A stretch of 64,000 bases of DNA from Halarcobacter anaerophilus (GTDB lineage: Bacteria; Campylobacterota; Campylobacteria; Campylobacterales; Arcobacteraceae): contig NZ_CP041070.1 in NCBI RefSeq assembly GCF_006459125.1, positions 2,480,001 to 2,544,000 of the forward strand, in the 5' to 3' direction. The notes below the pieces were generated by a model that saw nothing but the letters and a program-made list of their open reading frames with translations, ran no database searches and was not told where the DNA came from. A program made the position numbers and the translations under genes. Of the stretch, positions 9,840 through 46,437 are shown one piece after another. Position 1 is the first letter of the stretch; the number at the start of each line of letters is the position of its first letter.

Positions 9840-9849
9840 TAGATATTCC

Positions 9850-10178: not shown

Positions 10179-10205
10179 AGGTTTTCAAAAGGTTAAGAAA
10201 AAGTC

Positions 10206-10376: not shown

Positions 10377-10385
10377 AAGTTATCC

Positions 10386-11594: not shown

Positions 11595-11624
11595 AAAATT
11601 CCCCTTAAAAAATTTTGGTTATTG

Positions 11625-11666
11625 CCCTCTGAGTAGATAAGCCCACTGGCTTCTCTATTCAGAGGG
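11625..11666 (-). promoter_or_regulatory. Hairpin in the tuf leader
   Basis: Directly upstream of the tuf ribosome-binding site the minus-strand transcript can fold CCCTCTGA with TCAGAGGG, then TAGA with TCTA and AAGCC with GGCTT, giving 17 bp with two mismatches and a 4-nt loop. It is GC-rich against an AT-rich background. No terminating U-tract follows directly. A role in mRNA stability or leader control is an inference. Confidence 0.5.
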
Positions 11667-11774
11667 GATGATTTATATATTTATGTTCACTAAAAAATAG
11701 ATACTATTTTTTTCGTGGATTGGTATTTTAATTAAAAAATACTAAAAAAAACTTTAATGGGAGATTTTTTGTAT

Positions 11775-11806
11775 AAAAAAGGAGTTATAAAAATGCGTTA
11801 TAACTC
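11775..11806 (-). terminator. Terminator-like hairpin between tRNA-Gly and tuf
   Basis: Perfect 9-bp stem (GAGTTATAA at 11782-11790 with its complement at 11798-11806) with a 7-nt loop, followed on the minus strand by C and six T. It would end the tRNA cluster transcript, or let part of it pass, before tuf. The 108 nt between it and the tuf leader hairpin are very AT-rich and probably hold a tuf promoter, though I cannot single out a convincing -10. Confidence 0.7.
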
Positions 11807-11830
11807 AGCTCCCAGTAATCAATAAATTAA

Positions 11831-11907
<77 letters not shown>

Positions 11908-11917
11908 AACATTTTAG

Positions 11918-12002
11918 TGGTGGTGAGAGAAGGATTTGAACCTTCGAAGCCATAGGCGGGAGATTTACAGTCTCCTGGATTTGACCACTCTCCAACCTCA
12001 CC
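11918..12002 (-). tRNA. trnY: tRNA-Tyr (anticodon GTA)
   Basis: 85-nt class II tRNA with a long variable arm and encoded CCA. The acceptor is GGTGAGG with TCTCACC (one G-U), the anticodon loop is ACTGTAAAT, and the T-arm contains GGTTCAAATCC. Confidence 0.97.
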
Positions 12003-12066
12003 GTTGAAAAATTATTGTTCTGGTCAAGCGCTGATCTTTTTAAGATTACGCACGACATTAATAAAA

Positions 12067-12143
12067 TGGAGCTGGTGAAGGGAGTTGAACCCCCGACCTG
12101 CTGATTACAAATCAGCTGCTCTAGCCAACTGAGCTACACCAGC
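12067..12143 (-). tRNA. trnT: tRNA-Thr (anticodon TGT)
   Basis: 77-nt cloverleaf with encoded CCA. The acceptor is GCTGGTG with CACCAGC, the anticodon stem CTGAT/ATCAG surrounds loop TTGTA, and the T-arm is GGGGGTTCAACTCCC. Confidence 0.97.
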
Positions 12144-12186
12144 ATCCGTCAATTTAAATCTTTTTAAAAAACTAGTCTTTAAAAAG

Positions 12187-12262
12187 TGGTGGCGCGGGGC
12201 AGAATCGAACTGCCGACACAAGGATTTTCAGTCCTTTGCTCTACCGACTGAGCTACCGAGCC
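12187..12262 (-). tRNA. trnF: tRNA-Phe (anticodon GAA), acceptor-stem mismatch
   Basis: 76-nt cloverleaf with encoded CCA and anticodon loop CTGAAAA. The 5' acceptor strand is GGCTCGG and the 3' strand CCGCGCC, which leaves a U-C mismatch at the fourth pair (window 12259 against 12194); a standard pair would need CCGAGCC. All other helices pair normally. It is the first gene of the tRNA-tuf cluster. Confidence 0.93.
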
Positions 12263-12280
12263 GTCTTAAATTGGAGTGAA

Positions 12281-12286
12281 ATTATA
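12281..12286 (-). promoter_or_regulatory. Probable -10 box of the tRNA-tuf cluster
   Basis: A perfect TATAAT on the minus strand, 18 nt before the mature 5' end of tRNA-Phe, in the short gap after murD. There is no clear TTGACA upstream, as is common in Campylobacterota. Confidence 0.55.
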
Positions 12287-12298
12287 CACATACAATAA

Positions 12299-13459
12299 TT
12301 AATTTAAGCTTAAACTAGATACGAACTTTTTAAATTCTTCTCCTCTTTGCTTATATGAGCTATATTGATCAAGTGATGCAGCAGCTGGAGAAAGTACTGC
12401 AAGGCTGTTTTTATCGTGCTTTTGAGCTATTCTTTTAACTGCTTTTTCCAAGATAGAACATTTTGAAATTTTTATATTATACTCTTTGCAAAATTGATAA
12501 ATTCTATCTTCATTACTTCCAATTGCAAATATTTCAATATCAAAAGCTTTTATATAATCAAAAAGAGGCTTTAAATCTGCTCCTTTATCATCTCCTCCTA
12601 ATATTAGAAATATTTTTTTATCTTTATATGATTCTAAAGCTTTTATTGTTGCATCTACATTTGTAGCTTTACTATCATCTATCCATAATCTATTATCTAT
12701 ATCTTTAAACTCTTCTACTTTATGTTTATCTACTTTAAAACTGTTAATATTTTCATAATCAATTTCATCAAAAAGAATCTTTTTTGCGGCAAGAGATAGA
12801 ATTGCATCTATTAAAAAAGGTTCTTTAAATTTTATGCTGCTTTTTTCAATATTAAAAAACTCGCATAAATCATCACTGTTTTTATATGTGATTTTCATAG
12901 CTGAAGTGGGATAATCTTTAAACTCTTCGGGAATTATTGCAATTTCACCCTCACCCATCATATCAAGCGGTTTTAATTTTGCTCTTTTATACTCTTCAAA
13001 ACTTCCGTGCCAAGATATATGATCTTCACTTATAGGAAGAAGTATATATAAATTGGGTTTTGCTCTTTTTATATAATGAAAAGTAAAAGAAGAGGTCTCT
13101 AATATCCATATCGGTGCTTTTTTATCTAAGAGAGTAACAGGCGTACCGATATTTCCTCCGCATACACTTCCTTTATCTTTTAAAAGGTGCTGAATCATTT
13201 GCGTAGTAGTTGTTTTTCCGTTTGTTCCGCTTATCCAAATAGAAAAAGGCATATTCTCATATATTAAGTCATAATCACTTTGTATATTGTTTGCATTTTT
13301 TACCATATTATTATAAGGAGGTATTCCCGGACTTACAATTGTAATATCTTTAGAATCTAAATCATAACTGTTAAAATCCGAATCATCATACAAAGTTACG
13401 TTTTCAAAACTTTTTTTTATTGCTTGTGCAGTGAGACCTTTTCCAAGTACTCTAATCAT
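12299..13459 (-). CDS. murD: UDP-N-acetylmuramoylalanine--D-glutamate ligase
   Basis: Cytoplasmic Mur ligase that adds D-Glu to UDP-MurNAc-L-Ala using ATP. The ATP loop GTNGKTTTT is at residues 78-86, ETSSFTFHY and the SEDHISWH metal/substrate segment follow, and the C-terminal domain has DDSKATNVDA and LSPAAASLDQ(Y). At 386 residues it is short (the E. coli enzyme is near 438), with a reduced N-terminal domain, as in other Campylobacterota. It starts 13 nt after mraY ends, and the two are clearly co-transcribed. Confidence 0.95.
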   Translation of the reverse strand: MIRVLGKGLTAQAIKKSFENVTLYDDSDFNSYDLDSKDITIVSPGIPPYNNMVKNANNIQSDYDLIYENMPFSIWISGTNGKTTTTQMIQHLLKDKGSVCGGNIGTPVTLLDKKAPIWILETSSFTFHYIKRAKPNLYILLPISEDHISWHGSFEEYKRAKLKPLDMMGEGEIAIIPEEFKDYPTSAMKITYKNSDDLCEFFNIEKSSIKFKEPFLIDAILSLAAKKILFDEIDYENINSFKVDKHKVEEFKDIDNRLWIDDSKATNVDATIKALESYKDKKIFLILGGDDKGADLKPLFDYIKAFDIEIFAIGSNEDRIYQFCKEYNIKISKCSILEKAVKRIAQKHDKNSLAVLSPAAASLDQYSSYKQRGEEFKKFVSSLSLN

Positions 13460-14642: not shown

Positions 14643-14648
14643 TATAAT
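14643..14648 (+). promoter_or_regulatory. Probable -10 box for gpmI
   Basis: Perfect TATAAT 44 nt before the gpmI start, preceded by T-rich DNA typical of sigma-70 promoters in Campylobacterota. A second AT-rich stretch with TATAATATAAT follows closer to the gene and could also serve. Confidence 0.5.
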
Positions 14649-14692
14649 CCGCGAAGATTATAATATAATATAGTTTTTAAAAGGTTTAAATA

Positions 14693-16168
14693 ATGAGTAA
14701 AAAAGCAATCTTGATAATTACAGACGGAATTGGATTTAATGAGTCGGAAAAGTATAATGCATTTACCAATGCTAAGACTCCGACATACGATTATCTATTC
14801 AAAAACGTACCCTACTCGTTAATTCACACTTACGGAAAATATGTAGGACTTCCCGACGGACAAATGGGAAACAGTGAAGTAGGACATATGACAATAGGTA
14901 GCGGTAGAGTTTTATACCAAGATTTAGTAAAAATAAATATCTCTATTGAAAATGACACTTTAAAAGATAATAATGTTATAAAAGAGACTATCTCTTCATC
15001 AAATAATATTCATCTAATAGGATTATTGAGTGACGGTGGAGTACACTCTCATATCAATCATATAATGAGTTTAGCAAAAATTGCAAAAAACAGCGGCAAA
15101 AAAGTCTTTATTCATGCAATAACAGACGGAAGAGATGTCGCACCTAATTGTGCAAAAAAATATCTTCAACAAATTATCGATATTTGTGATGATGATATAA
15201 AATTGGCAACAATTGCCGGAAGATATTACTCTATGGATAGAGATAATAGATGGGAAAGAGTTCAAAAAGCTTATGATGCAATAGCATTTGCAACTCCAAA
15301 AACTTCAAAAGAGGTATTTGATTTAATAGATGAGTCTTATAAAAACGAAATCTTTGATGAATTTTTAGTTCCTACAGCCTTTGAAGATTATAAAGGATTA
15401 GAAGAGAATGACGGAGTAATTTTCTGCAATTTCAGAAGCGATAGAATGAGAGAAATCTCAACGGCAATCGCAAGCAGTCAATTTAATGAATTTAAAAGAT
15501 TCGATAAAAAACTAAATATAGCTACAATGACGCAATATGATAAAAATCTTCCTCTTCCCGTAATTTTTCCAAAAGAGACTCCTAAAAACACCCTTGCAGA
15601 AGTAATTTCAAATGCAGGATTAAGCCAACTTCATACGGCAGAAACAGAGAAATATGCCCATGTAACATTTTTCTTTAACGGCGGTGTTGAAGAACCTGTT
15701 TTAAATGAGAGCAGAGTTTTAATACCTTCTCCTAAAGTAGCTACTTATGATCTTCAACCTGAAATGAGTGCACCAAAAGTATCAGAAGCCGTTTTAAAAG
15801 CAATGGAAGAGAGTTACGATTTTATTGTCGTAAATTTTGCAAACGGAGACATGGTCGGACATACAGGTGTTTATGAAGCCGGTATAAAAGCCGTTGAAGC
15901 TGTAGATAAAGAGTTAGGACAAATTATTAAAAAAGCAAAAGAGAAAGATTATAATCTTATTTTAACAAGCGACCACGGAAATTGTGAAATGATGAAAGAT
16001 GAAAAAGGAAAAACCTTAACTAATCACACAGTAGGAGATGTATTCTGCTTCGTTATGGCACAAGGTGTAGATAGAGTAAAAACAGGAAGCTTAAACAATA
16101 TTGCTCCTACTGTTTTAAAACTTATGGAGATAGAAAAGCCAAAAGAGATGGATGAGGCTTTGGTTTAA
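14693..16168 (+). CDS. gpmI: 2,3-bisphosphoglycerate-independent phosphoglycerate mutase
   Basis: Manganese-dependent enzyme interconverting 3- and 2-phosphoglycerate in glycolysis/gluconeogenesis. It belongs to the alkaline phosphatase superfamily: the first metal site is at Asp11 (ITDGIGF), the catalytic serine is Ser61 in GNSEVGHMTIGSGR, the substrate pocket has HAITDGRDVAP, and the second metal set includes TSDHGNCEMM and NHTVGDVF. At 491 residues it is close to the usual 505-515. Its stop overlaps the next start by one base (TAATG), so the ABC ATPase is in the same operon. Confidence 0.97.
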   Translation: MSKKAILIITDGIGFNESEKYNAFTNAKTPTYDYLFKNVPYSLIHTYGKYVGLPDGQMGNSEVGHMTIGSGRVLYQDLVKINISIENDTLKDNNVIKETISSSNNIHLIGLLSDGGVHSHINHIMSLAKIAKNSGKKVFIHAITDGRDVAPNCAKKYLQQIIDICDDDIKLATIAGRYYSMDRDNRWERVQKAYDAIAFATPKTSKEVFDLIDESYKNEIFDEFLVPTAFEDYKGLEENDGVIFCNFRSDRMREISTAIASSQFNEFKRFDKKLNIATMTQYDKNLPLPVIFPKETPKNTLAEVISNAGLSQLHTAETEKYAHVTFFFNGGVEEPVLNESRVLIPSPKVATYDLQPEMSAPKVSEAVLKAMEESYDFIVVNFANGDMVGHTGVYEAGIKAVEAVDKELGQIIKKAKEKDYNLILTSDHGNCEMMKDEKGKTLTNHTVGDVFCFVMAQGVDRVKTGSLNNIAPTVLKLMEIEKPKEMDEALV

Positions 16169-16866
16169 TGACGCAAAAAGTAGATATAAAAAGACTACAA
16201 ATATCAACCGATAAAAAAAATTTAGTCGATCTTTGCTTTGATATAGATGAGGCTACTGCTTTAATCGGTCAAAGCGGAAGCGGCAAATCACTGACGTTGA
16301 AGTCTATTTTAAATCTGCTTCCTTCAAATTTAAAATTAGATTTTGAGGTTGATTCACCTTTTGAATTAAACAGTAATACTATAGGATTTATTCCTCAAAA
16401 TCCGTTTACTTCACTCTCTCCTATGACAAAAATAAAAAATCAATTTTTCTGTTCAGATGAAAAAAAAGAACATTTAATGCAATTTGTCGGTTTAGATAAA
16501 AAACTTTTAGAAAGATTTCCCAATCAATTAAGCGGAGGACAACTTCAAAGAGCGGTTATTGCAATTGCATTTAGCAATGATATAAAACTTCTGCTTTTGG
16601 ATGAACCTACGACAGCACTTGATGAAAAATCAAAACAGACAATTTTAAATCTGCTTCATGACTTACAAAAGAAGTTAAATTTTTTGACTCTTTTTGTGAC
16701 TCATGATATAAACTCTATAAAAAACATTTGTAAAAATATTGTTATTATAAAAGATGGTAAAGTTATTGAGAAAGGAGATACGAAAAGTATCCTTTCAAAT
16801 CCAAAAACTTCTTACACCAAAGAGCTTATAAATTCAACTTTTGAAAATAAGGAATTCAGGAAATAG
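16168..16866 (+). CDS. Orphan ABC transporter ATP-binding protein (peptide/nickel type)
   Basis: A complete ABC ATPase of 232 residues: Walker A GQSGSGKS (34-41), Q-loop IPQNPFTSLSP, signature LSGGQLQRA (121-129), Walker B LLLLDEP (141-147), and H-loop VTHD. The NPFTSLSP segment resembles OppD/DppD/NikD proteins, which carry NPMTSLNP there, but the protein lacks their C-terminal extension. No permease or binding protein is nearby; it is squeezed between gpmI (1-nt overlap) and a class A PBP (2-nt gap). The substrate cannot be read from the sequence. Confidence 0.88.
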   Translation: MTQKVDIKRLQISTDKKNLVDLCFDIDEATALIGQSGSGKSLTLKSILNLLPSNLKLDFEVDSPFELNSNTIGFIPQNPFTSLSPMTKIKNQFFCSDEKKEHLMQFVGLDKKLLERFPNQLSGGQLQRAVIAIAFSNDIKLLLLDEPTTALDEKSKQTILNLLHDLQKKLNFLTLFVTHDINSIKNICKNIVIIKDGKVIEKGDTKSILSNPKTSYTKELINSTFENKEFRK

Positions 16867-16868
16867 AT

Positions 16869-18866
16869 ATGATGAAATACATTTTTACATTCTTGCTTAT
16901 AATCGGTATAGGTATTGCAGGATGGTTATTAAATCTTTATAATGAAATTAGAGGGGATTTGGATAAAGTAGTAAACTACAATCCACCCAAAACAACTCAG
17001 TTTTTTGATAGAGACGGAAAACTTATTGCAAATATATTTAAAAAAGAGCATAGATTATATGTAAAATATGAAGATATCCCGGCAAGAGTTGTCGAAGCTT
17101 TAGTTGCTATAGAAGATACTCACTTTTTTGAACATCATGGTATTAACCCCGATGCAATCAGCAGAGCAATGATAAAAAATATTAAAGCAATGAAATATGT
17201 AGAAGGAGCAAGCACCCTAACCCAGCAACTTATAAAAAGTATTGTATTAACAAGAGAAAAAAAACTAATAAGAAAAATAAAAGAGGCACTTTTAGCTGTA
17301 AGATTAGAAACAATTTTGACAAAAGAGCAAATTCTTGAAAGATATTTAAATCAAGTCTATTTTGGGCACAGCTATTATGGGATTAGAACCGCTGCACAAG
17401 GATATTTTAGAAAAGATTTGTTTGAATTAAATCTAAAAGAGATTGCAATTTTAGTAGGTCTTCCAAAAGCTCCAAGTTTTTACGACCCTACACGAAATCT
17501 AAAATTTACCCTAACAAGAGCAAATCAAGTAATAAGCAGAATGCATACATTAGGCTGGATAAATGATGAAGAGTATAAAGACTCAATAAACTATATTCCT
17601 AAAGTTTATAATGATACTTTAACAAAAAACAAAGCCCCTTATATTGTAGATTATGCAATAAAAATTTTACATAAAGATATCAAAGATATTAGATCAGGCG
17701 GATATAAAATAAACTTGACAATTGATTTGGATGCACAAAAAATTGCAAGAGAAGCCTTAAAATACGGATATGATAGAATTATACAAAGAGATGAAAAGCT
17801 GCAAAAGAATCCAAAAAACAATGTTGACCATGACGGAAACGAAGTTGAAGAAGGATATTTTGTAAATTCATTAAACGGAGCTTTAATCTCAATTGAAAAC
17901 AACACAGGAAAAATATTGGCTATGGTTGGAGGAGTAGATTATAAAGAGTCCTCTTTTAACAGAGTTGTTCAAAGTAGAAGACAACCGGGTTCTTCGGCCA
18001 AACCTTTTTTCTATCAAACAGCACTTGATTTAGGATATTCTCCGGCTTCTCAACTTATAGATATAGGAAGAACCTATAATTATGAAATTGACGGTGAAGA
18101 GAAAAAATGGCAACCTAAAAACTATGGTGGCAAATTCAAAGGTATAATTACCCTAAGAGAATCTCTGGTAAAATCAAGAAACCTTGCAACAATTAATTTA
18201 GTAACAGATGTAGGAATAGATGAAATGTATAAAGGTTTAGAAAACTTTGGAATAACAGGAATGCCAAAAGATCTCTCTATAACCTTGGGTTCTTTTTCAA
18301 TCTCACCTTTTGATTTTAGTAAAGCCTACAGCTCTTTTTCAAATGATGGTATACAAGTAACTCCATATATGATAAATTCAATTACAAATAGCAAAGGTGA
18401 AACTATAAATTTTGAACCGGAAGTAAAATATGTAGACTCTCCTGAACAAATCTATTTAATGAAATCAATTTTAGAAGATGTTGTTTTAAAAGGTACGGGA
18501 AGAAGAGCAAAAGTAAAAGGAATTGAATTAGCAGGTAAAACAGGAACAACCAACAACAATACAGATGCATGGTTTTGTGGATTTTCTCCTACAATTCAAA
18601 CCATTGTATGGTTTGGTAAAGATGATAATACTGCAATGAGAAGAAGTGAAGGTGGAGGAACTACAGCAGCTCCGTCATTCTCTTATTTTTATAAAAAATA
18701 TTTAGAAATTCATCCCGAAATTCAAAGAGAGTTTCAAATGCCTGATAATGTAAAAAGTTCTTATGTGAATGGACATAAAGAGTATTATACACAAACTTCG
18801 CCTCTTCCAAAAACTCAAATGCCTGTTACTAATGAAGCTCCAAACGGAGAAATAATAGAGTTCTAA
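16869..18866 (+). CDS. pbpA: Class A penicillin-binding protein (PBP1A type)
   Basis: Bifunctional murein glycosyltransferase/transpeptidase anchored by an N-terminal helix (residues 3-22). The GT51 domain has catalytic Glu82 in EDTHFFEHHGI and GASTLTQQL near 113-121. The transpeptidase motifs are S375-S-A-K378, S436-R-N438 and K557-T-G559. At 665 residues it is a compact PBP1A lacking large inserted domains. It is the third gene after gpmI and the ABC ATPase, and a strong bidirectional terminator follows. Confidence 0.95.
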   Translation: MMKYIFTFLLIIGIGIAGWLLNLYNEIRGDLDKVVNYNPPKTTQFFDRDGKLIANIFKKEHRLYVKYEDIPARVVEALVAIEDTHFFEHHGINPDAISRAMIKNIKAMKYVEGASTLTQQLIKSIVLTREKKLIRKIKEALLAVRLETILTKEQILERYLNQVYFGHSYYGIRTAAQGYFRKDLFELNLKEIAILVGLPKAPSFYDPTRNLKFTLTRANQVISRMHTLGWINDEEYKDSINYIPKVYNDTLTKNKAPYIVDYAIKILHKDIKDIRSGGYKINLTIDLDAQKIAREALKYGYDRIIQRDEKLQKNPKNNVDHDGNEVEEGYFVNSLNGALISIENNTGKILAMVGGVDYKESSFNRVVQSRRQPGSSAKPFFYQTALDLGYSPASQLIDIGRTYNYEIDGEEKKWQPKNYGGKFKGIITLRESLVKSRNLATINLVTDVGIDEMYKGLENFGITGMPKDLSITLGSFSISPFDFSKAYSSFSNDGIQVTPYMINSITNSKGETINFEPEVKYVDSPEQIYLMKSILEDVVLKGTGRRAKVKGIELAGKTGTTNNNTDAWFCGFSPTIQTIVWFGKDDNTAMRRSEGGGTTAAPSFSYFYKKYLEIHPEIQREFQMPDNVKSSYVNGHKEYYTQTSPLPKTQMPVTNEAPNGEIIEF

Positions 18867-29444: not shown

Positions 29445-29459
29445 ATCTCTCTTCTTTTT
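29433..29459. terminator. Bidirectional terminator with the ppiB stop codon in its loop
   Basis: AAGAGAGAT (29433-29441) pairs with ATCTCTCTT (29445-29453). The 3-nt loop is the TAA stop of ppiB. On the plus strand it is followed by CTTTTT; on the minus strand by TTCTTTG. It serves the convergent ppiB and the heme-protein gene. Confidence 0.85.
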
Positions 29460-30861
29460 AGTGACTTCTTGATTCTCTTTTAAATTTTCTCCATTTTTCA
29501 AAAATACTATAATTTTTAAGATTGTTATCATGACTGTAATCAGCTGCATAGTTCATCAAAACTTGTTCTAAAAAAGTACTGTAATCAAGTGCAATTACAT
29601 CTTTTTCTTCACTTTGAGGAATATTTCCCCATCTATTTTGAAACCATTGATTCCATATCTTAGAACCTGGTTCATACATTGTCCAAATTCCGTTTTTTAT
29701 ACTTTCTACAGGATAAAAAGGTGTTACCATATTATAACTTTTAGGTAAAAAACTTGCTGTTCCATGACAGCTCATACAAGAAGAACTTCTAAGTTTTTTA
29801 ACCGTTTTTCCATTAACTTTTACATCATACTTCACAGCAATATCAAAAGGTCCGGATAATCTTAAACCATACCCCAAAGTCACTTTTGCATAAGCAGGTG
29901 CTTTAGGGTTTATATAAGTTTCCAAAAGCTCTTCTTTAGGATTTTGTGCAGAATTTACAGCCGGATCGTTTCCCCACATTGCCCCTAGAGGAACCATTTT
30001 ATCCCAAGCATTATCTCCTTTTGCATTTTTATCATAAACCAAGGTTGTAAATACCCAGCCTGTTTCAGGTGCCGCAACAGAATCTTTAATAATAATATCA
30101 AAGATTGTAACACGAGTATCAGTTACTACAGGCGGTTTATCTTTTATCGTACCGTTCATATCAAAAGGTTTTCTATATATTTTCCACTTTGCCGCACCTT
30201 CTAAAACAGGCCACTGTTCAGGTGTTGCAGAAGCAGAAGCTGCTTTAATTATTATAGCACCCTCTTTAAATTGAGCTTCATCGTTATTTACACTAGGAAT
30301 ACAGCTATCTTCACTTTCATCACACTTTTTAAAGACTTCATGCAGAGTATATGCTGCTACTTTATCATAATAAATTGCAGCATAATTTCTAACAGGAACA
30401 GTAAGTCCAAAATCCTTATATACTGAAGCTGGTTGAATTTGACCGGTATACGTTCCGTAAATAGCCTCTCTTCCTTCCCAGCCTGTCAAGTCTACATTTT
30501 CTCCTGCCCATAACATACTATACCAATCTTTTTGTAAACTTTTATTCCACTTTTCTTGATCTAAAACAAAAGTCTTCACAGACGGTTCAATATACTTTTT
30601 TAAAGCCATAATATAATCATAAGCTTTTTCTTTTGTTAATTTTTTACCGTTGGTTACTTTACTCCAGGGGGTGTTAATAGGCTCTTCATAACTTACAGGA
30701 TAATTGAAGTTAAATTTAAAAAGAGCTCCGGAATACTCTTTTTTAGAAGGAATCTCACCATTATTTACGGCAAAAGGATCAATATTTTGACTTTCTAAAG
30801 CCAAAAGATTTGAAACAGAAAAAATTAAAAAACAACCTACTATACTTTTAAAAAACATCAT
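29458..30861 (-). CDS. Secreted protein with one c-type heme motif, function unknown
   Basis: 467 residues starting with a clear signal peptide (hydrophobic segment about 5-20, ending LLALES). A single CMSCH heme-c attachment site is at 362-366, near the C-terminus; Cys180 and Cys187 could form a disulfide. The rest is a large domain rich in Trp and Tyr that I do not recognise. It would act in the periplasm and need the cytochrome c maturation system. It begins 7 nt after the 1662-residue GGDEF protein, with GGAG before ATGATG, so the two are one operon. A role as redox enzyme or as redox sensor for that partner is a guess. Confidence 0.8.
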   Translation of the reverse strand: MMFFKSIVGCFLIFSVSNLLALESQNIDPFAVNNGEIPSKKEYSGALFKFNFNYPVSYEEPINTPWSKVTNGKKLTKEKAYDYIMALKKYIEPSVKTFVLDQEKWNKSLQKDWYSMLWAGENVDLTGWEGREAIYGTYTGQIQPASVYKDFGLTVPVRNYAAIYYDKVAAYTLHEVFKKCDESEDSCIPSVNNDEAQFKEGAIIIKAASASATPEQWPVLEGAAKWKIYRKPFDMNGTIKDKPPVVTDTRVTIFDIIIKDSVAAPETGWVFTTLVYDKNAKGDNAWDKMVPLGAMWGNDPAVNSAQNPKEELLETYINPKAPAYAKVTLGYGLRLSGPFDIAVKYDVKVNGKTVKKLRSSSCMSCHGTASFLPKSYNMVTPFYPVESIKNGIWTMYEPGSKIWNQWFQNRWGNIPQSEEKDVIALDYSTFLEQVLMNYAADYSHDNNLKNYSIFEKWRKFKRESRSH

Positions 30862-30868
30862 TTACTCC

Positions 30869-33800
30869 TTATTTTATTTGGTCTCGTCCATTTTGTTTTG
30901 CTCTATAAAGTGCATCATCGGCAAATTTTATAAGAGTATTAGGAGAGATTATTTTTATATCATCTGTAGTTGCTATTCCCATGCTAAGAGTTACAAAATC
31001 AGAGATATTTGATTTTATATGAGGGATTTTTAATTTTCTTACATCTTTAGATATCTCTTGAGCTATTACCAAAGCTTTTTTTCTAGTTGTGTTTGGCAAA
31101 ATTATGGCAAACTCTTCTCCTCCATACCTTGCAACTAAATCATTTTTTCTTTTTATATTGGATATAAAAACTTTTGATATCTCTTTTAAACACTCATCTC
31201 CTTGTAAATGTCCGTAAAAATCATTATATTGTTTAAAAAAGTCAATATCACACATAATCAATGATAACACTTCATTATTTCTCGTTATTCTAGAACACTC
31301 TTTTTTTAATACTTCATCAAATATTCTTCTATTTTTTAACTGAGTTAAGGCATCTATAGTAGCTAACTGATCTAATTTTTTAATAGCCTCTTGTAATTTT
31401 TGTTCAACGACTTTTCTTTTCTCATTCTCTTCTACTATACTTGAATTTAGTTCTAAAATTTTGTTATTTTGCTCTTGTAAAATTAAGTTTTGATCTTTTA
31501 ATTTTTCGTTTTTTATATCTAAATCTTTTGTTCTTTCTTGAACTTTTTGTTCCAGATTTTTGTACATTTTGGCATTTTCAATTGAGATTGCGATTTGGGT
31601 ACTTAAATGTTTCAATAAATCAATTTTCTCTTTTGTAAAAACACCTGTTAAAAGATTATTCTCTAAATAAATAATACCTTTTAGACTATTTCTTAAAATT
31701 AAAGGAAAAGATAATACCGATTTTACTTCCCTTTGAATAATATTTATCTCTTTTGAAAAAATAGGATCATCTTCTAAATCATTTATAATAACAGACTCTT
31801 TTGTTCTAATTACATATTTCACTATATTTTGAATTATATTTTTACACTCTTGATATCTTTTATCGATTAAAACATCAAAACTGTTTTCATCATCGTTTAA
31901 ATAAATTGCTTCAACTTTATATTCAAAATCCTCTTCTAATATAATTACGATATTTTGTGCCCCCGAATTTTCTAAAAGTATTCTAATCAGACTTTTTAAA
32001 AGATTTGAGAGTTTTTGTTCTCTAAAAATAGCTTCTGAGGATCTAATCAAAGTATTAATATTTAAGGATTTTTCTACTGAAGTTTTTTCATTTTCTTCAG
32101 AATCTAAATATTTGCCCGCTCCCCAACTTATAAAGCTATTTTGAAACTCCTCTTTATATAATTTTGCAAAGCTCTCTTGTTTTAACGAATCATAAATTTT
32201 ATATAAAAGTCTGCAAGCTATAATTTTTAAATTATATTGAGAGTATATTTGAGAGATTTCGATAGCTTTTAAAAATTGATTTTGTGCTTTAATATAATCC
32301 TTATTTAATCTGTTTAATTCCCCGTTTAATATATATTTTCTTACTATGAAATTTTCTGCACAATCTTTTGAATATTTTTCAAATTTTTCAATTGTAGTTT
32401 TTACTCTTTTTAAATATATAATTTTATCTTTAACATTAAAAGAGTTAAAACATTGCAGATATATTAAAGCTTCATAAAAAAAATGTTCGCAACTATGAAA
32501 CATACCTTTTGAAGCATTTAAAAATTTTCTACTCTTTTTTGAAACTTCAAAAGCCAACTCATAACTTTCATGAATATACAAAGAGATCATTTTATTAATA
32601 TAATAAAAATGTGCAAAATGCAAAGAACTGAAATTATCAAGATTTTTTATATACTCATCTTCATTAAAAGATTCATCACTAAAAGAGACAGTATTATTAG
32701 TCTTTCCTTGAATATTTTTTATAGCTTGTTTAACGCTCTTTATTGCTTCAAGTTGTTCTTTTGCTCCTATTTTACTTAATCCTTTTTCAAACTCTAAGAT
32801 CTGCTCTTGAATTAACTGAAAATTCACTCCTCTCATAAACATACTTTGAACTATCCCAGCTGCAGCACAAGCACTATGGAACCAATCTCCGATGTGCATA
32901 CCGCTTTTGTAAGATTCATGCCAGTTTTGTTCTGTTAGACTAGCAGGAATTATCCAAGATAAACCGAAATAACCCGATACAAATTTTACTTCCGGTGCAA
33001 GTACGGTATTATTATACTTTTTTATCATATCCAAAGAGAGAGTTGCATATTTATAACCTAATTGATGTTTTTCTAAAATACCGCCTTTAAAAATAACTCC
33101 ATAAACCATAAAACCTATTACGGCATCTTTAGTATCACCATGTTTCAAACAACTTTTTACAAGTAACATTGAGATAAGTACACAAAGCTCAGGTCTAATT
33201 TGATATGCCGCTTTTAAAACCGAAGATAAAATTTTAATTATTATTATGGCTCTCTCTTCTTTTGCCTCATCCAAGTTTAATAAATTTTCCACCTTTTTAT
33301 TTTTTAATTTCAATTCAAGTTCTAAATACTCTTTTATAAAAATTAAAAAATTAAATCCCCTTGGAATATTTAAATCAAATAATTTCAAGGCTGCTTTACC
33401 TATTTTATAAGCCTCGTTAAACTCGGAAAAATCAGTGTGAAGTTTTATCATCTGCTCATATATATAAGCTTTTTTTAGATCGTTTTTTATATATTTTAAT
33501 GCTTCTTTATAATAAGACAATGCCTTAGTCTTGTTAAGCACTAAATGCTCTGCAATTGCAAAATCTTTAAAAAGTTCATCACGGGTATCTAATAATTTAA
33601 CATTTGAATATAAAGAAAAAGCATTTTTCATAAAATTTAATGACATTTCAAAATCGCCGTTACTTCTTGCAATAAGTGCAGCTTCATGATTTAAATTTGC
33701 CAAAAAATCATTTTTATTCATATTAATAAAATATTGCTTCGCTTTATTATAATGATTAACAAACGTTAAAAGATACTCTTTATTATCTTTATACCTTTTA

Positions 33801-35857
33801 TAATAAAAGTCTCCTACTTCTTTATGATATGAAATAAGATCTTTTTCATTTATTGACGTATAAAAAACTTGTTGTATCCTGTCATGGGAAAACTGATAAA
33901 AGTTTTTATCGATTATGGAAGATTTGGTTATCCATTCATCTTGCAAACATGAATTTAAAATCTCTTCAAAGTTCTCTTTTTCTTTAAATATATCTTTTAA
34001 AACCACAATATCAAAATTATTTCCTATACATGACGCTTTTTTTAAAAATTCTATTTTCAAATTATCTAAAGATGCTATCCTGGTTTCCAAAAATTCTATA
34101 ATATTACTACTTGCTTTTATCTGTTTTAATTCATCTATTTTACAATACCAAGAGTTCTTCTCTTCATCAAAAAAAAGAGTATTATTCTGCTGTATCTGCT
34201 TTAATAGTTGAATAACAAAGAAAGCATTGCCACCCGTTTTTTTATGTAAGAGTTCGGATATCTCATCACTGTTATTTATAGTAATATTTGAATCTAACAG
34301 ACTTTTTATATCTAAAGGAGTAAGAGGTTTTAAATTATATTTATTTAATAAAATATCAAAACTCTCAAATAATTCCAACTCTTTTTTTAGTAATTTATTT
34401 TTTGATAACTCATTATCTCTATAAGTTATTATTACTTTGACATTATTTAGATTTAAAAGAAGATTCTCTAACCATTTTATAGTAACAGAATCAGCCCATT
34501 GCATATCATCCATAAAAATAAGTAAAGGATTGTTTTTTGTTGAAAAAAGTTTTAAAAATTTAAATAATTGACTGTTAAATCTATTTTTTGATTCACTAGG
34601 ATCTAATTGATCTACATCAGGTAAATCACCGATAACAACTCTTAATTCAGGTATTATTCCAAACAATACTTTTACATCTCTACCTAAATGCAATAATATT
34701 TTATTTTTCCATTTATTTAAAGTTTCATCATCTTCAAGCAACAACTCTTTTGCCAATTTTCTGAAACAGTCATATAAAACTTTATAAGGAGTATTGTTTT
34801 TATAATCATCAAATTTTACATTTATAAAATTTTTAAATATTTCATCTGCATTTTCAAGAACTTTATTTACAAAAGAAGTTTTCCCTATCCCTGAAGGTCC
34901 GTAAATAATAAATAATTGATTTTTACTTTCATTTTTATATAAAGCCTCTTTAAAAGAAGAAAGTTCTAAGTTTCTACCGAAAAAAGTCTTTTTACCTATT
35001 AAAAAATCTTTTTTATGTTTATTAATTTCAAAATCTAATACATCTAAATTATTATCAAGTCTTTTTTGAATTTTTTTTAAATCTAAAAGAAGAGAAAAAA
35101 TACTGTCATATCTGTCTATAGGATTTTTTTCAATCATCTTATTAATAATCAGTGATAAGACTTTTGGTATATCATTATTAAAATTGCTTACTAAAGGCAA
35201 ATCTTTTGCAATAATATTGTAAGACAAAGAATCTTTTTTCTCTTTACTATAAGGAATAAAACCTGCTAACAATTCATAAAAGAGTATTCCTAAAGAGAAA
35301 ATATCAGTTTTATAATCAACTTCCATGTTAATTCTATTTGTCTGTTCAGGAGAGTTATAAAATGATTTATTATTAAAAGATGGACAGCTGTAACCTTTAT
35401 TAAAAGAGTAGTTAAAATTTAACAATCTTATATCGTGCAGTTTCTTGTTAATTAAAATTGAATCAGCATCTATATTATTATGTATAACACCCTTTTTATG
35501 TAAATAATCTAATGCTTCACAAAACTTAATTGCTATTGATATAAACTCATTCAAATTCTCTTTATTAACATACTTAAAATTCTCTTTGAGAGGAATTCCT
35601 TCATACTTTTCAAATATTACAAAAAGTCTGTTATCGACTTTTTTTTTATCTAGTGCTTTAAGTATATATTTATGATCACATTTCGATAGTATATTAAATT
35701 CATTTATTAACTCATTACTTTCACTTTGTAAAGAGTGAATCTCTTTTGTTGTTTTAGCTAAAAACTTGTTTTTTAAATCTGATGTAACTGTATTATATAT
35801 ATTAAAATTGCTATATGAATATTTTAAAGTTTCTAATTTAAAATCTTTAATTGACAA
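30869..35857 (-). CDS. Pseudokinase-AAA ATPase-helical repeat-GAF-GGDEF signalling protein
   Basis: 1662 residues in this order: Ser/Thr kinase-like domain (about 1-260), AAA/NACHT-like ATPase (about 290-570; Walker A GPSGIGKTS at 320-328, Walker B LLIFMDD at 445-451), helical TPR-like region (about 620-1240), GAF (about 1270-1425), coiled coil (about 1425-1490) and GGDEF (GGEEF at 1579-1583, with an RxxD inhibitory site RKND). The kinase core is degenerate: HRD is HNN (126-128), the catalytic-loop Asn is Ser133, DFG is NFN (147-149) and no glycine loop is visible, while SPEQ and DIFSLGILFYELL are kept. No membrane helix or signal peptide is evident. The start is a TTG with AGGAT upstream; no ATG exists nearby. 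Related cyanobacterial proteins end in histidine kinases; here the output should be cyclic di-GMP. Confidence 0.88.
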   Translation of the reverse strand: MSIKDFKLETLKYSYSNFNIYNTVTSDLKNKFLAKTTKEIHSLQSESNELINEFNILSKCDHKYILKALDKKKVDNRLFVIFEKYEGIPLKENFKYVNKENLNEFISIAIKFCEALDYLHKKGVIHNNIDADSILINKKLHDIRLLNFNYSFNKGYSCPSFNNKSFYNSPEQTNRINMEVDYKTDIFSLGILFYELLAGFIPYSKEKKDSLSYNIIAKDLPLVSNFNNDIPKVLSLIINKMIEKNPIDRYDSIFSLLLDLKKIQKRLDNNLDVLDFEINKHKKDFLIGKKTFFGRNLELSSFKEALYKNESKNQLFIIYGPSGIGKTSFVNKVLENADEIFKNFINVKFDDYKNNTPYKVLYDCFRKLAKELLLEDDETLNKWKNKILLHLGRDVKVLFGIIPELRVVIGDLPDVDQLDPSESKNRFNSQLFKFLKLFSTKNNPLLIFMDDMQWADSVTIKWLENLLLNLNNVKVIITYRDNELSKNKLLKKELELFESFDILLNKYNLKPLTPLDIKSLLDSNITINNSDEISELLHKKTGGNAFFVIQLLKQIQQNNTLFFDEEKNSWYCKIDELKQIKASSNIIEFLETRIASLDNLKIEFLKKASCIGNNFDIVVLKDIFKEKENFEEILNSCLQDEWITKSSIIDKNFYQFSHDRIQQVFYTSINEKDLISYHKEVGDFYYKRYKDNKEYLLTFVNHYNKAKQYFINMNKNDFLANLNHEAALIARSNGDFEMSLNFMKNAFSLYSNVKLLDTRDELFKDFAIAEHLVLNKTKALSYYKEALKYIKNDLKKAYIYEQMIKLHTDFSEFNEAYKIGKAALKLFDLNIPRGFNFLIFIKEYLELELKLKNKKVENLLNLDEAKEERAIIIIKILSSVLKAAYQIRPELCVLISMLLVKSCLKHGDTKDAVIGFMVYGVIFKGGILEKHQLGYKYATLSLDMIKKYNNTVLAPEVKFVSGYFGLSWIIPASLTEQNWHESYKSGMHIGDWFHSACAAAGIVQSMFMRGVNFQLIQEQILEFEKGLSKIGAKEQLEAIKSVKQAIKNIQGKTNNTVSFSDESFNEDEYIKNLDNFSSLHFAHFYYINKMISLYIHESYELAFEVSKKSRKFLNASKGMFHSCEHFFYEALIYLQCFNSFNVKDKIIYLKRVKTTIEKFEKYSKDCAENFIVRKYILNGELNRLNKDYIKAQNQFLKAIEISQIYSQYNLKIIACRLLYKIYDSLKQESFAKLYKEEFQNSFISWGAGKYLDSEENEKTSVEKSLNINTLIRSSEAIFREQKLSNLLKSLIRILLENSGAQNIVIILEEDFEYKVEAIYLNDDENSFDVLIDKRYQECKNIIQNIVKYVIRTKESVIINDLEDDPIFSKEINIIQREVKSVLSFPLILRNSLKGIIYLENNLLTGVFTKEKIDLLKHLSTQIAISIENAKMYKNLEQKVQERTKDLDIKNEKLKDQNLILQEQNNKILELNSSIVEENEKRKVVEQKLQEAIKKLDQLATIDALTQLKNRRIFDEVLKKECSRITRNNEVLSLIMCDIDFFKQYNDFYGHLQGDECLKEISKVFISNIKRKNDLVARYGGEEFAIILPNTTRKKALVIAQEISKDVRKLKIPHIKSNISDFVTLSMGIATTDDIKIISPNTLIKFADDALYRAKQNGRDQIK

Positions 35858-36025: not shown

Positions 36026-36041
36026 AAAAATAAACTCAAGA

Positions 36042-36157
36042 GCTGGCAGCGGCTTACGTTTCCACTCCCGTAGGGAGCAGTATTATCAGCGCAGAGGTGC
36101 TTGACTTCCGGGTTCGGAATGGAGCCGGGTATTTCCACCTCGCTAAAACCACCAGCA
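36042..36157 (-). rRNA. rrf: 5S ribosomal RNA
   Basis: About 116 nt. On the minus strand the 5' end GCTGGTGG pairs with the 3' end CTGCCAGC, and the conserved CCGAACCCGGAAGTCAAGC block is in the middle. The ends are estimated from stem pairing. Confidence 0.93.
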
Positions 36158-41633: not shown

Positions 41634-42254
41634 CTATTCTATGTACGTATATCCACTCTTTGGTTCTATTATTATCCCTATTTCTCGACCTTCTTCTGAT
41701 TTTAGCTCTATTTTACATCTCTGTTTTATCTCATATTTATTTTCTTGATTTTCATAATTACTAAGCTTTGAATACACTTTCCCATCATTTCCAAAAGAAA
41801 TTTGCCCCAAACTTGATGTCATGTTACAACTTATATTTACATCACTTATTCCATACTCTTTTGTAAGAAGAACATATTTACTTGTATTTGAATTTGTTTC
41901 ACAACTATTTGATGAATAAATCTTTTTATTTGTTAAAGGATCACTTATCGCTTCATCTATATTTGGATGCCCTTTCATATTTTCATCACTATATATTATG
42001 TAATATATTCCTCCTATACTTTGTTTACATCTGAAAAACTTAAAAGTCCATCTTTTTTTATGCCATAGTTTGTTATCGTAAGCTTCTTTACTGTCTACTA
42101 AGGCTTGATACCTTGTCTGTTTTAAATATAAGACTATTCGATTTGCCGCATCTTCTAAATTGTTTTTGTCAATTTTTATAAAAAAGGAGTAGTAACATAT
42201 GGATAGTAGAAGTATTATTAGGATTAGTTCAAGTAAAGAAAAACTTCTTTTCAT
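41634..42254 (-). CDS. Pseudopilin-like protein with type II/IV prepilin N-terminus
   Basis: 206 residues. The N-terminus MKRSFSLLELILIILLL has the form of a prepilin peptidase site: short basic leader, cut expected before Phe5, glutamate five residues on, then a hydrophobic helix. The rest is a small periplasmic domain with several cysteines (for example SCET, NISCNM) as in minor pseudopilins. It overlaps the preceding membrane protein by one base. No type II secretion or type IV pilus assembly genes are in the window, so the partner machinery must be elsewhere. Confidence 0.75.
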   Translation of the reverse strand: MKRSFSLLELILIILLLSICYYSFFIKIDKNNLEDAANRIVLYLKQTRYQALVDSKEAYDNKLWHKKRWTFKFFRCKQSIGGIYYIIYSDENMKGHPNIDEAISDPLTNKKIYSSNSCETNSNTSKYVLLTKEYGISDVNISCNMTSSLGQISFGNDGKVYSKLSNYENQENKYEIKQRCKIELKSEEGREIGIIIEPKSGYTYIE

Positions 42255-43450
42255 TAGTTTTTTATTATATATGCAGTTGCAACTGTTTTATCTAAATACT
42301 TAATCGATATTTTTTTATCGTAATAATATTTTTTATTTGTTGAAACGAAATACCTGTTTCCCTCTTTTATCCCATAGAATTTTAATCTAAGCAATAACTC
42401 TTGTTGATCACTTTCAATTTCATTAATATTATTCTTTTTTAGTTTAGCAGCTAACTCTTTTGCAATATTATAGTTGTAAGCAAAATGTTTTTTAGGATTT
42501 TCAAGAAAAAGATACAAAGGTTTATTAAAAATTGTAAGTGTTGCATTAAGAAGCAAAATAAAAAGGGTTATAGAGGCTACATATCTATGTTTTCTTCTAA
42601 ATTGAGGTAATCTCACTCTGTAACTCTGTAAAAAGTTTTTCACCATATAAGGTAAAAAGATAACAACAAAAGGTGCATAGTCTTCAATATATATTCTTTG
42701 TCTAAATGAGAATAATAAAGAAAAGGCTAAGGATGTAGCCGAGATATACCAAACTATATGTCTGTTTCCTTTTACCCCTTCCCTGTAAATTGTATAAAAG
42801 AAGTAGATAAAAAGAAGAGGTGAAAATATTGAAGCATATATTGCAAAGGTATCTACTAAAAAACCTCTTGGCTTTCCACCCGTGTCAAATCCGTAAAGTG
42901 CCATTGAAACACAAAACAAAATAAAAGAGCTTATTAAAAGTTTTTTGTCAAAATCTTTTAAAGCATAAAAAAACAGAGCAAGGAAGAATATTGCAAAAGA
43001 GTTATCTATAAATAAAAAAAGGATTAAGAGTATATAACAATGCCTTTTTGTAGATTTTAAATAATTCAAATATAATAAAGTAAAAAATGTAACTATTATT
43101 GCGCTGTTAACCAATAATGAGGCACTTAAGAGCCCAGGTAATAACATAAAAATAAGTATAGAAAGTAGTCGATCACTCTCTTTTTTAAAAAGATTATCCG
43201 TAAATCTATACATTAGAAGAATACTAAAAAAGTAAAAAAGAATAAAAGGAGCCCTTAGGGCATAATCATTTTGTCCGAAAATAGCAATTGAAGTATTCGT
43301 AATAATAGATAATAATGAATTATTTATAAATACGTTTAAGGCTTCTTTATAAGAAATACTTAAAGTATCTACCGTAAAAAAGAGTATAGATAATACTACA
43401 AAAAGAGTTGTATAAAAAATTATTTTGTAAATATTATCAGATAGACTCAT
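42254..43450 (-). CDS. Polytopic membrane protein, likely lipid-linked glycosyltransferase (GT39/ArnT-like)
   Basis: 398 residues with about ten predicted membrane helices. The first periplasmic loop has an acidic residue followed by RAPFILFYF, as in the GT39/ArnT/PMT-like GT-C fold (usually D/E pairs, then R-hP). Helices are spaced as in that superfamily and a soluble C-terminal tail of about 80 residues follows. The donor and acceptor cannot be told. It overlaps pabA by 4 nt (ATGA). Confidence 0.6.
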   Translation of the reverse strand: MSLSDNIYKIIFYTTLFVVLSILFFTVDTLSISYKEALNVFINNSLLSIITNTSIAIFGQNDYALRAPFILFYFFSILLMYRFTDNLFKKESDRLLSILIFMLLPGLLSASLLVNSAIIVTFFTLLYLNYLKSTKRHCYILLILFLFIDNSFAIFFLALFFYALKDFDKKLLISSFILFCVSMALYGFDTGGKPRGFLVDTFAIYASIFSPLLFIYFFYTIYREGVKGNRHIVWYISATSLAFSLLFSFRQRIYIEDYAPFVVIFLPYMVKNFLQSYRVRLPQFRRKHRYVASITLFILLLNATLTIFNKPLYLFLENPKKHFAYNYNIAKELAAKLKKNNINEIESDQQELLLRLKFYGIKEGNRYFVSTNKKYYYDKKISIKYLDKTVATAYIIKN

Positions 43451-44154: not shown

Positions 44155-46437
44155 ATGTATAGTATTAGAAATTTACTCATTTTTATTTTATTCTTAGCAA
44201 CTTTTTTAAATGCAAAAGAGTTAGAAAAGGTATCTATTCAACTTGATTGGCTACATCAATTTCAATTTGCAGGATATTACATTGCAAAAGAGAAAGGCTT
44301 TTATAAAGATGAGGGGCTTGATGTAACGATAAAAGAACTTAAACAAAACAAAGATGTAGTAGAAAACGTTCTTAATTCAAAAAGCCAATATGGTGTGGGA
44401 AAATCTTCTTTAATCGTATCAAGGTTAAATAATAAAAAAGTTGTTCTTTTAAGTGCAATATACCAAAATTCACCTATGGTATTAATTTCAAAAAAAAGTT
44501 CTAATATTAATTATCCAAATGAGTTAAAAAATAAAAGAGTAATGCTCACTCCTGATGCAAGGTCTGCTGCGAATATAAATTCTATGATTATTTCCCAAGG
44601 ATTAAAGTTAGAAGATGTAAAATTTCAAAAACATAGTTTTGATATAAATGATTTAATAAACGGCAAAACTGATGCAATGGGATGTTATCTCTCTAATGAA
44701 CCCTATCTTCTGGAAAAAAGAGGAATAAAATACGACATTCTTGATCCCAGCGATTACGGCTTTGATTTTTATGGCGGAATCTTTTTTACCTCTCAAAAAG
44801 AGTTAGATACTCACCCAAAAAGAGTTAAAAAAATGTATGAAGCAACTCTTAAAGGTTGGAAATATGCTTTTAATCATATACAAGAGAGTGCCCAACTTAT
44901 ATTTGAAAAGTATAATACGCAAAACAAAAGCTTAGATGCACTTATTTATGAAGCTAATATATTAAAAAGACTTTCTAAAATAGAGGAAGGTCTGCTTGGA
45001 AATATAAATAAAAAGAAGATTGAAGAGATTCAAAGACTATATACCCTTTTGGGATTTGCAAAAAAATATACGAAAATGCCAAAAGCAGAAGAATTTGTAT
45101 ATAATATACCCAAAACTATATACTCTTTAAAAGAGAGTGATTATATAAAAAACAAAGAGTTAACTCTTTTAAGTAATCAAAATTTCCCTCCTTTTACAAT
45201 GATCTCTTCAGAAAAAGTTACAGGTATTGAGATTGATTACTGGAAACTAATAGTAAAAAAACTTGATATTAAAAACAGTAATATTAAAACATTTGCTAAT
45301 TTAAATGAGGCATTAAAAACCATTGAAGAGAATGACAGCTATGTAAAATATGCTTTTAGTAAAAAAGATTTAAATAAAAATATCGTTTTAAGCGATTCTA
45401 TAGCAAAAATAAAACTAGGTATCGTAACATTAACAGACAAACCGTATATATCAGATATAATACAATTAAAAGCTAAAAGAGTCGCTGTTCCTAAATATGC
45501 ACTGTTTTATAAAAAACTAAAGAAGAAACATCCTGAAATAAATTTTGTTGAAGTAGAAGATATTAATGAAAGTTTTGATCTTTTAAAAGAGGGAAGCGTC
45601 TACGCACTTGTTAATAAAATGCCTACGCTTAATTATATGATATCAAATAGAAATCTGGAAAATATGAAAATTGCAGGTTCTTTTGATGAAAAATTTGATA
45701 TGAGATTAAGTGTCAATAAAGATAATAAACTTTTGTTAGAGCTTTTAAATAGTGCCATTTCTAAAATATCAGAGGAACAAAGAGATTTAATAAACTCAAA
45801 GTATTATTCAATAATTTTTGAAGATCATATCGATTATGAAGGCATATATAAAATAGTATTACCTCTTTTAATTATCTTAATATTCATAATAAGAAGCAAT
45901 AGACTTATGAATAAAGAGATAAAAAGAAGAAAAGAGGTAGAAAAAGAGTTAAAAAAAGTTGCAAATGTAGACTCTTTGACAAAAATCTATAACAGAAGAA
46001 AAATCAACTCAATTATCAAGAATGAAGTAAACAGAGCCAAAAGATATGATAGGAACTTTTCAATAATATTTTTTGATATAGATAATTTCAAACTTATAAA
46101 TGATAATTTGGGTCATTCTGTAGGAGACGATGTATTAATTGACTTATCTAATCTAATAAAAAACAGTATAAGAAAAACGGACTATTTTGGAAGATGGGGA
46201 GGAGAAGAGTTTATTATTATACTGCCTGAAACCAATAGAAAAAGTGCAGAAAATATTGCATACCTTTTAAAAGATAAAATCAATAAAAATGATTTCAATA
46301 TTCCAAGAACGGTAACTTGCAGTTTTGGAGTGACTCAATTTGAAGAAAATGATAATGAAGATACTATTTTAACAAGAGTTGACAAAGCTTTATATCATGT
46401 AAAAAGAAACGGGAAAAATAATATAAAAGTACTTTAA
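44155..46437 (+). CDS. Diguanylate cyclase with two periplasmic substrate-binding domains
   Basis: 760 residues: signal peptide or anchor (1-20), an NMT1/THI5-like binding domain (about 21-310; begins IQLDWLHQFQFAGYYIAKEK, the pattern of thiamine-pyrimidine-precursor binding proteins), a second, SBP_bac_3-like domain (about 330-565), a membrane helix near 570-587, and a cytoplasmic GGDEF domain with GGEEF at 682-686 and an RxxD inhibitory site (RKTD). The likely role is sensing one or two small molecules in the periplasm and making cyclic di-GMP. The ligand is unknown; a pyrimidine-like compound is suggested only by family resemblance. It is transcribed alone, and convergent with the UbiD gene. 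Confidence 0.87.
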   Translation: MYSIRNLLIFILFLATFLNAKELEKVSIQLDWLHQFQFAGYYIAKEKGFYKDEGLDVTIKELKQNKDVVENVLNSKSQYGVGKSSLIVSRLNNKKVVLLSAIYQNSPMVLISKKSSNINYPNELKNKRVMLTPDARSAANINSMIISQGLKLEDVKFQKHSFDINDLINGKTDAMGCYLSNEPYLLEKRGIKYDILDPSDYGFDFYGGIFFTSQKELDTHPKRVKKMYEATLKGWKYAFNHIQESAQLIFEKYNTQNKSLDALIYEANILKRLSKIEEGLLGNINKKKIEEIQRLYTLLGFAKKYTKMPKAEEFVYNIPKTIYSLKESDYIKNKELTLLSNQNFPPFTMISSEKVTGIEIDYWKLIVKKLDIKNSNIKTFANLNEALKTIEENDSYVKYAFSKKDLNKNIVLSDSIAKIKLGIVTLTDKPYISDIIQLKAKRVAVPKYALFYKKLKKKHPEINFVEVEDINESFDLLKEGSVYALVNKMPTLNYMISNRNLENMKIAGSFDEKFDMRLSVNKDNKLLLELLNSAISKISEEQRDLINSKYYSIIFEDHIDYEGIYKIVLPLLIILIFIIRSNRLMNKEIKRRKEVEKELKKVANVDSLTKIYNRRKINSIIKNEVNRAKRYDRNFSIIFFDIDNFKLINDNLGHSVGDDVLIDLSNLIKNSIRKTDYFGRWGGEEFIIILPETNRKSAENIAYLLKDKINKNDFNIPRTVTCSFGVTQFEENDNEDTILTRVDKALYHVKRNGKNNIKVL

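Follow-up and report, generated by a model that had tools for sequence, protein, structure and literature searches.

According to the part of the published account considered here (PMC12599244, Biochem Soc Trans 2025), every CP1-type pseudokinase is joined to a predicted ATPase, COG3899, and frequently also to domains of GAF type or PAS, so that the joining of a dead kinase to an ATPase is not in itself new. The protein described here is encoded in the window, i.e. the whole stretch of 64,000 nucleotides of Halarcobacter anaerophilus DNA that was analysed, and it resembles the CP1 pseudokinases in having a kinase fold with degraded motifs, lacking the aspartates of both HRD and DFG, an ATPase, a GAF domain and no transmembrane region as judged from hydropathy. 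The ATPase of the window protein is recognised as AAA_16 (residues 291–471), that of CP1 as COG3899; a difference lies in the GGDEF output and the partner cytochrome, neither of which is named in the same portion of the CP1 account (PMC12599244). The combination that the original prediction placed in the foreground, a dead kinase with an ATPase and a GGDEF domain, amounts to a variation on a type of pseudokinase that is already known.

The order of kinase, AAA, repeats and GAF is also that of the proteins named by NCBI as 'trifunctional serine/threonine-protein kinase/ATP-binding protein/sensor histidine kinase'. One of them, encoded on a Leptolyngbya plasmid (H21), shares 27% identity with the window protein over 98% of residues 1–1262 of the latter. 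The trifunctional proteins differ in their histidine kinase output and in their intact kinase domain (K-D-N-D in L148). Ser/Thr-kinase-like, AAA-16 and GAF domains followed by an output are likewise found in the Chk1-type hybrid histidine kinases of Candida, which, however, are eukaryotic, have a histidine kinase and receiver output and, in the part of the source considered, no named cytochrome partner (PMC9069115). With regard to the haem, a Cache-type sensor domain with a cytochrome-derived c-type haem also exemplifies c-type haem in extracytoplasmic sensing, but there, according to the portion of the preprint used, the haem motif lies inside the sensor domain, whereas in the present case it belongs to a separate P460-like protein encoded beside the STAND protein (preprint PMC12889525). 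None of the matches listed in the open-access literature described the pairing of a P460-like cytochrome with a STAND protein or a diguanylate cyclase; PMC8547461, considered as a possible match, was discarded, as the relevant part of that paper concerns a PAS-GGDEF protein instead.

The large protein and its degenerate kinase domain

The gene for the large protein of 1662 residues occupies positions 30869..35857 of the minus strand. Its frame is open over 1663 codons and opens just one codon ahead of the TTG start, the first internal methionine is residue 178 and AGGA lies directly upstream of the TTG, so the choice of this start codon is close to forced. Upstream on the same strand is a 16S-Ile-Ala-23S-5S rRNA operon with the 5S gene at 36041–36156; just past that operon, an ORF of 398 residues (42254–43450, minus strand) gave no Pfam match at 1e-8.

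All four domains named below as Pfam matches scored over their cut-offs. From the N-terminus, the protein (all coordinates on the minus strand) consists of the pseudokinase domain (residues 21–250, 35108..35797; Pkinase, E 4e-25), a STAND-type ATPase domain (residues 291–471, 34445..34987; AAA_16, E 2e-23), a putative helical-repeat, TPR-like region with approximate boundaries (~residues 620–1260, 32078..34000), a GAF domain (residues 1284–1426, 31580..32008; E 4e-11) and a GGDEF diguanylate cyclase domain (residues 1499–1660, 30878..31363; PF00990, E 1e-49). The only Pfam match in the middle part of ~600 residues was TPR_12 (E 3e-4), which with 21.4 bits falls under its cut-off of 30.1, and the nSTAND1 match of 19.9 bits likewise stays under its cut-off of 27.1. 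The P-loop of the ATPase retains both Walker A (GPSGIGKTS, residues 320–328) and Walker B (LIFMDD, residues 446–451). In the GGDEF domain the active site reads GGEEF (residues 1579–1583) and is preceded, at the spacing of the product-inhibition I-site, by an RxxD motif, RKND (residues 1570–1573). No membrane span was detected by hydropathy, the highest 19-residue peak being 1.52. A search of the genome with the large protein returned 33 matches, all of which, except that of the protein itself, were to the GGDEF region or to the GAF-GGDEF part. Another GGDEF protein of the window, in which NMT1 and SBP_bac_3 periplasmic-binding domains are fused to GGDEF (44155–46437, plus strand), is encoded 8 kb from the large gene.

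Within the kinase domain only the β3 lysine is kept, as K35 in the segment FLAKTT. The HRD motif is replaced by HNN (beginning with His126), the catalytic-loop asparagine by Ser133 and the DFG motif by NFN (beginning with Asn147), while the absence of any glycine from the first 40 residues means that there is no glycine loop. The predicted structure of residues 1–597 has a mean pLDDT of 79.7, and all 50 structural matches listed for it were protein kinases (Z 26.6–28.2) with PknB on top, the first ~270 residues of the model matching PknB at Z 28. The kinase fold is therefore secure and the catalytic losses are no slip of the alignment. As K35 is kept, the kinase fold may still bind ATP. The original prediction, made from the letters of the DNA, had described a protein of 1662 residues with a dead kinase, an intact ATPase, helical repeats, GAF and a GGDEF with intact active and product-inhibition sites, and this description stands, being borne out by the reading frame, the Pfam domains, the kinase fold with its motif losses and the intact motifs of the ATPase and GGDEF domains. 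The role that it proposed for the dead kinase, as scaffold or as a module for ligand sensing, is a hypothesis that may or may not hold.

Kinase motifs and output domains among the relatives

Homologues were collected from the window's family (Arcobacteraceae), its phylum, the Gammaproteobacteria, named GTDB genomes and plasmids, five of the 217 matched plasmid records being used. Among 63 proteins, six had no usable kinase region and the remaining 57 kinase regions were aligned; L131 (misaligned) as well as L136 and L140 (gap at the HRD site) were dropped from the HRD count, leaving 19 rows inside and 35 outside the clade described below. The tree of 54 rows was calculated by a quick method from the ATPase and repeat region alone, with the kinase columns excluded; some of its long branches were flagged, and nine short rows are absent from it. 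Four of the absent rows (L111, L129, L130 and L145) were by default counted as outside the clade, L147 was assigned to it by similarity and by a match range complementary to that of L143 from the same genome, and L058, as regards its kinase part, entered the clade count on the strength of its other piece, which the tree includes.

The window protein belongs to a clade of 20 of the 54 tree rows (SH-aLRT 100). It is clear that the loss of the kinase motifs is conserved across this clade, since the HRD aspartate is missing in 18 of the 19 evaluable members, compared with 11 of the 35 rows outside (Fisher p 7e-6, uncorrected for kinship). None of the 19 has the catalytic aspartate, the loop asparagine and the DFG aspartate together, even the sole member with an HRD aspartate, L147, being without the loop asparagine and DFG; outside the clade 24/35 keep the HRD aspartate and 22/35 all three residues. 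The letters at the HRD site vary within the clade (HNN, HNS, HTN, YQN, HGN, HTQ, HAQ and HYN).

The output domains, assigned by BLAST against reference domains, were histidine kinase in 15 and GGDEF in six of the rows outside the clade, and histidine kinase in three and GGDEF in 12 of those inside, the output of the remaining rows in both groups being unseen or of another kind. The statement of the original prediction that its relatives normally terminate in a histidine kinase is thus correct only in part. The implied tie between a dead kinase and a cyclic di-GMP output did not survive the comparison: the histidine kinase-ended members of the clade have all lost the HRD aspartate (3/3), and of the GGDEF-ended relatives outside the clade four of the five evaluable keep it, only one lacking it. 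A coupling of the dead kinase to the GGDEF output was rejected on these grounds, and kinase loss is, as read from the aligned sequences, a mark of the clade and not of the output. A further output on the kinase-STAND core was seen in L117 (G469), the C-terminal domain of which is class III cyclase-like (BLAST E 1e-9); its kinase, with K-D-V-D at the four sites (valine for the loop asparagine), was called intact.

The adjacent P460-like cytochrome gene

Seven bases downstream of the large gene and on the same minus strand lies a gene for a product of 467 residues (29458..30861), probably for an exported mono-haem cytochrome resembling P460 and cytochrome c′-β, that the original prediction overlooked and that is a more telling feature than the dead kinase. 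The N-terminal hydrophobic stretch (30793..30861, minus strand; 19-residue hydropathy peak of 1.85 at residue 4) is a putative signal peptide, and the product is probably exported. A single c-type haem motif, CMSCH in the context SSSCMSCHG (residues 362–366, 29764..29778, minus strand), would carry the haem; its two cysteines and the histidine are invariant in 17/17 and 13/13 aligned relatives. The same holds for Lys206 (30244..30246, minus strand), which we take to be the candidate equivalent of the haem cross-linking lysine of P460.

No Pfam or NCBIfam family was assigned to the cytochrome at E 0.001, and the match to Pfam P460 (PF16694) scored 14.1 bits (E 0.06), below the gathering score of 27, so the protein is called P460-like and not a member of that family; among its relatives, 6/17 matched PF16694 at E up to 0.1, the best at 9e-4. 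The AlphaFold model is of middling quality (mean pLDDT 58.7), but its top 18 Foldseek matches (best E 2.8e-3) and its top 17 VIA rows (Z of 6.1 or less, under the tool's caution level of 8) are all P460 or c′-β cytochromes, the core of this likeness spanning approximately residues 61–347 (29821..30681, minus strand). One match of this group, 9htv, is titled only 'McCP' and is presumably the cytochrome c′ of M. capsulatus. Sequence searches of the PDB gave no match with the window cytochrome (E up to 1), with a profile of 17 cytochrome rows (E up to 10) or with the distant relative L069 (E up to 10). The protein is like P460 and c′-β cytochromes in its CxxCH motif, its best (if low-scoring) fold matches and the candidate lysine, but differs from them in its length (467 residues versus ~135–161 in the matched solved chains) and in a sequence match that falls short of the Pfam cut-off.

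The window's family is represented by 104 genomes, six of which have the cytochrome, in each case adjoining the STAND gene of the clade (Fisher p for co-occurrence 2e-8, uncorrected for kinship). A scan of GTDB species genomes, limited to close relatives of the cytochrome by the use of two exact peptide patterns, found 12 loci, including Malaciobacter, Nitrincola, Marinomonas and Methylobacter, 11 of them with an adjoining STAND gene; the twelfth (L066) is a fragment at a contig edge, and the same genome (L065) has the pair on another contig. With two genomes common to both sets (G077 = L055 and G072 = L056) and each genome counted once, a close relative of the cytochrome adjoins a STAND gene in 15/15 genomes of Campylobacterota and Gammaproteobacteria. 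All 15 fall within the clade of 20 rows. The cytochrome gene is located downstream where the output is GGDEF, and upstream at the histidine kinase-ended L043 and at L057, the output of which was not seen. Between the window and the gammaproteobacterial copies the cytochromes are ~55–59% and the STAND proteins ~30–35% identical, yet the two genes are still adjacent.

Beyond the pair the surroundings change: the flanks comprise cyclophilin and rRNA in the window, TlyA/RibF/CmoA/GlcD-like/YihY in L040, an ABC ATPase in L045, LysR and SbcCD-like genes in L059, AzlC and GntR in L062, and a histidine kinase-response regulator pair in L060. Membership of further neighbours in a module was not supported, since the flanks differ across the loci examined. 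At L043 (G072) a gene for a hybrid histidine kinase (14647–18144, minus strand), with two periplasmic solute-binding-like domains recognised by eye, precedes the cytochrome and STAND genes. In Nitrincola sp. A-D6 (L058, 5232–9937) the cytochrome gene is open, but the STAND gene next to it consists of two frames that overlap, which may reflect either a real frameshift or a sequencing error.

More distant cytochromes (~32–37% identity) adjoin genes for class III cyclase-AAA_16 proteins on 3/3 Paracoccus plasmids and in genome G651, where the cyclase-AAA_16 gene falls into two separate frames, so that the same cytochrome family stands beside STAND proteins with other outputs. On the Paracoccus plasmids (L068, L073 and L074) the cytochrome gene, the cyclase-AAA_16 gene and a Crp/Fnr gene follow one another in a three-gene operon, a candidate for a compact cyclic-nucleotide circuit. 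These operons resemble the window pair in a homologous cytochrome (32–34% identity) and a homologous STAND ATPase core (98.8% over ~residues 291–756 of the window protein); they differ in that the cyclase is N-terminal, the cytochrome gene is upstream and no kinase, GAF or GGDEF domain was found. No STAND gene was detected near the cytochrome of a Bradyrhizobium plasmid (L067, 38–40% identical), nor beside the still more distant cytochromes of ~31% identity or less (L069, L070, L075, L105 and L160–L162); for L106–L108 the comparison covered the window protein's own domains. On Variovorax, Rhizobium and Methylobacterium plasmids (L069, L070 and L075) the neighbouring genes code for an amidohydrolase, a GMC oxidoreductase or a molybdopterin enzyme, contexts that suggest an enzymatic branch of the cytochrome family.

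A possible two-gene signalling module

STAND ATPases show an established ligand-gated, ATP-driven assembly behaviour, and the mechanism proposed here is built on it. In our main reading, with a probability of roughly one half, the two genes form a signalling module in which a cytosolic STAND receptor and a periplasmic cytochrome of the P460/c′-β kind serve the same signal. The ATPase and the helical repeats would act as a ligand-gated ATP switch: a ligand at the repeats would release the control over the nucleotide, ATP binding would bring about assembly, and this assembly, relayed via the GAF domain, would bring two GGDEF domains together for the synthesis of c-di-GMP, which, to judge from its motifs, the large protein presumably makes, and the production of which the I-site would limit. 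The kinase fold, transferring no phosphate, would serve as a regulatory or assembly domain that either locks the resting state or binds a nucleotide via Lys35. The cytochrome, for its part, may bind or convert a small redox or nitrogen compound and so shape the signal read by the STAND receptor; most likely it binds or converts the very compound, or a precursor of it, that the STAND part reports. Direct contact between the two proteins is unlikely, since the large protein has no span by hydropathy and the cytochrome is expected in the periplasm. A nitric-oxide sensor tied to denitrification was considered as well but was not supported. By eye, NirS-type proteins (PF02239, paralogues included, E < 1e-40) occur in 43 of the 104 family genomes, namely in 0/6 of the cytochrome bearers and 43/98 of the others (p 0.04), one bearer, G032, having a weak match (E 1.5e-6). 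Nitric oxide from a cytochrome cd1 nitrite reductase is thus unsupported as the signal, and the missing matches speak against a straightforward scenario based on nitric oxide.

Members of the clade can do without the cytochrome, as five rows of the clade (L039, L044, L141, L142 and L114) have no adjoining cytochrome gene. In L039, from the window's own genus, the same downstream genes are present and the STAND frame is open, but the cytochrome is absent from the gap; L044 lies at a contig edge without it, and no match was found elsewhere in its genome; and no cytochrome was found beside the STAND gene in L141/L154 and L142/L155. In L114 a transposase-like gene interrupts the STAND gene. At the gammaproteobacterial clade locus L153 (G714, ~6514–12801) a gene of this type separates two parts of the STAND repeat region and the cytochrome was found neither in the region nor in a search of the genome, a single case that fits joint decay. 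The four loci L039, L044, L141 and L142, managing without the cytochrome, are also what the most serious competitor to the main reading can point to, namely that the large protein belongs to the ordinary STAND signalling proteins of CP1 type and senses a cytosolic ligand alone, with the cytochrome as a co-transcribed stress enzyme outside the signalling. This competitor is plausible, if the lesser of the two, because CP1 kinases, as far as the source considered here covers them, have no membrane spans, share the domain associations described above and are pseudokinases in ~40% of cases (PMC12599244), and P460 proteins are known from the relevant part of another source as hydroxylamine-oxidising enzymes (PMC11928373). 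That the two genes adjoin in every one of the 15 genomes, and that the cytochrome turns up again next to STAND proteins of different output, is nevertheless more than what a shared stress regulon usually produces.

The remaining alternatives carry less weight. A mobile cassette of two genes, adjacent through joint transfer and functionally uncoupled, would agree with the pair's patchy distribution and its differing flanks, but is improbable because cassettes tend to break up unless held together, while these copies have stayed adjacent at the divergence given above, and because the pair persists in both gene orders and together with GGDEF, histidine kinase and, in its more distant form, cyclase outputs. 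Least probable is an N-terminal kinase fold that is still active, by non-canonical phosphotransfer or AMPylation, so that the module would also signal by protein modification: the retained K35 and the other activities of SelO-type pseudokinases noted in the portion of the review considered (PMC12599244) speak for it, but in the window protein the three catalytic residues have been lost together and the glycine loop is absent, and the free drift of the motif letters within the clade is unlike the conservation of a new active site.

If the two-gene module is accepted, it may represent a wider class of envelope-to-cytosol signalling, in which a periplasmic P460-like haem protein informs a cytosolic STAND ATPase of a redox or nitrogen species and the fused output decides whether c-di-GMP, a cyclic mononucleotide or else a phosphorelay follows, the dead kinase being kept as a regulator in one branch; this generalisation is put forward tentatively and may well prove too broad. 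What is worth pursuing is the conserved pairing of the clade with a P460-like cytochrome, together with the renewed appearance of this cytochrome next to other STAND signalling proteins. For one branch of a pseudokinase family that has received little study this would provide a concrete partner gene, and P460-like cytochromes, known so far as enzymes or gas binders, would be tied to second-messenger signalling. One cytochrome family beside c-di-GMP, cyclase and histidine kinase outputs would moreover amount to a natural experiment on the ligand of the STAND core.
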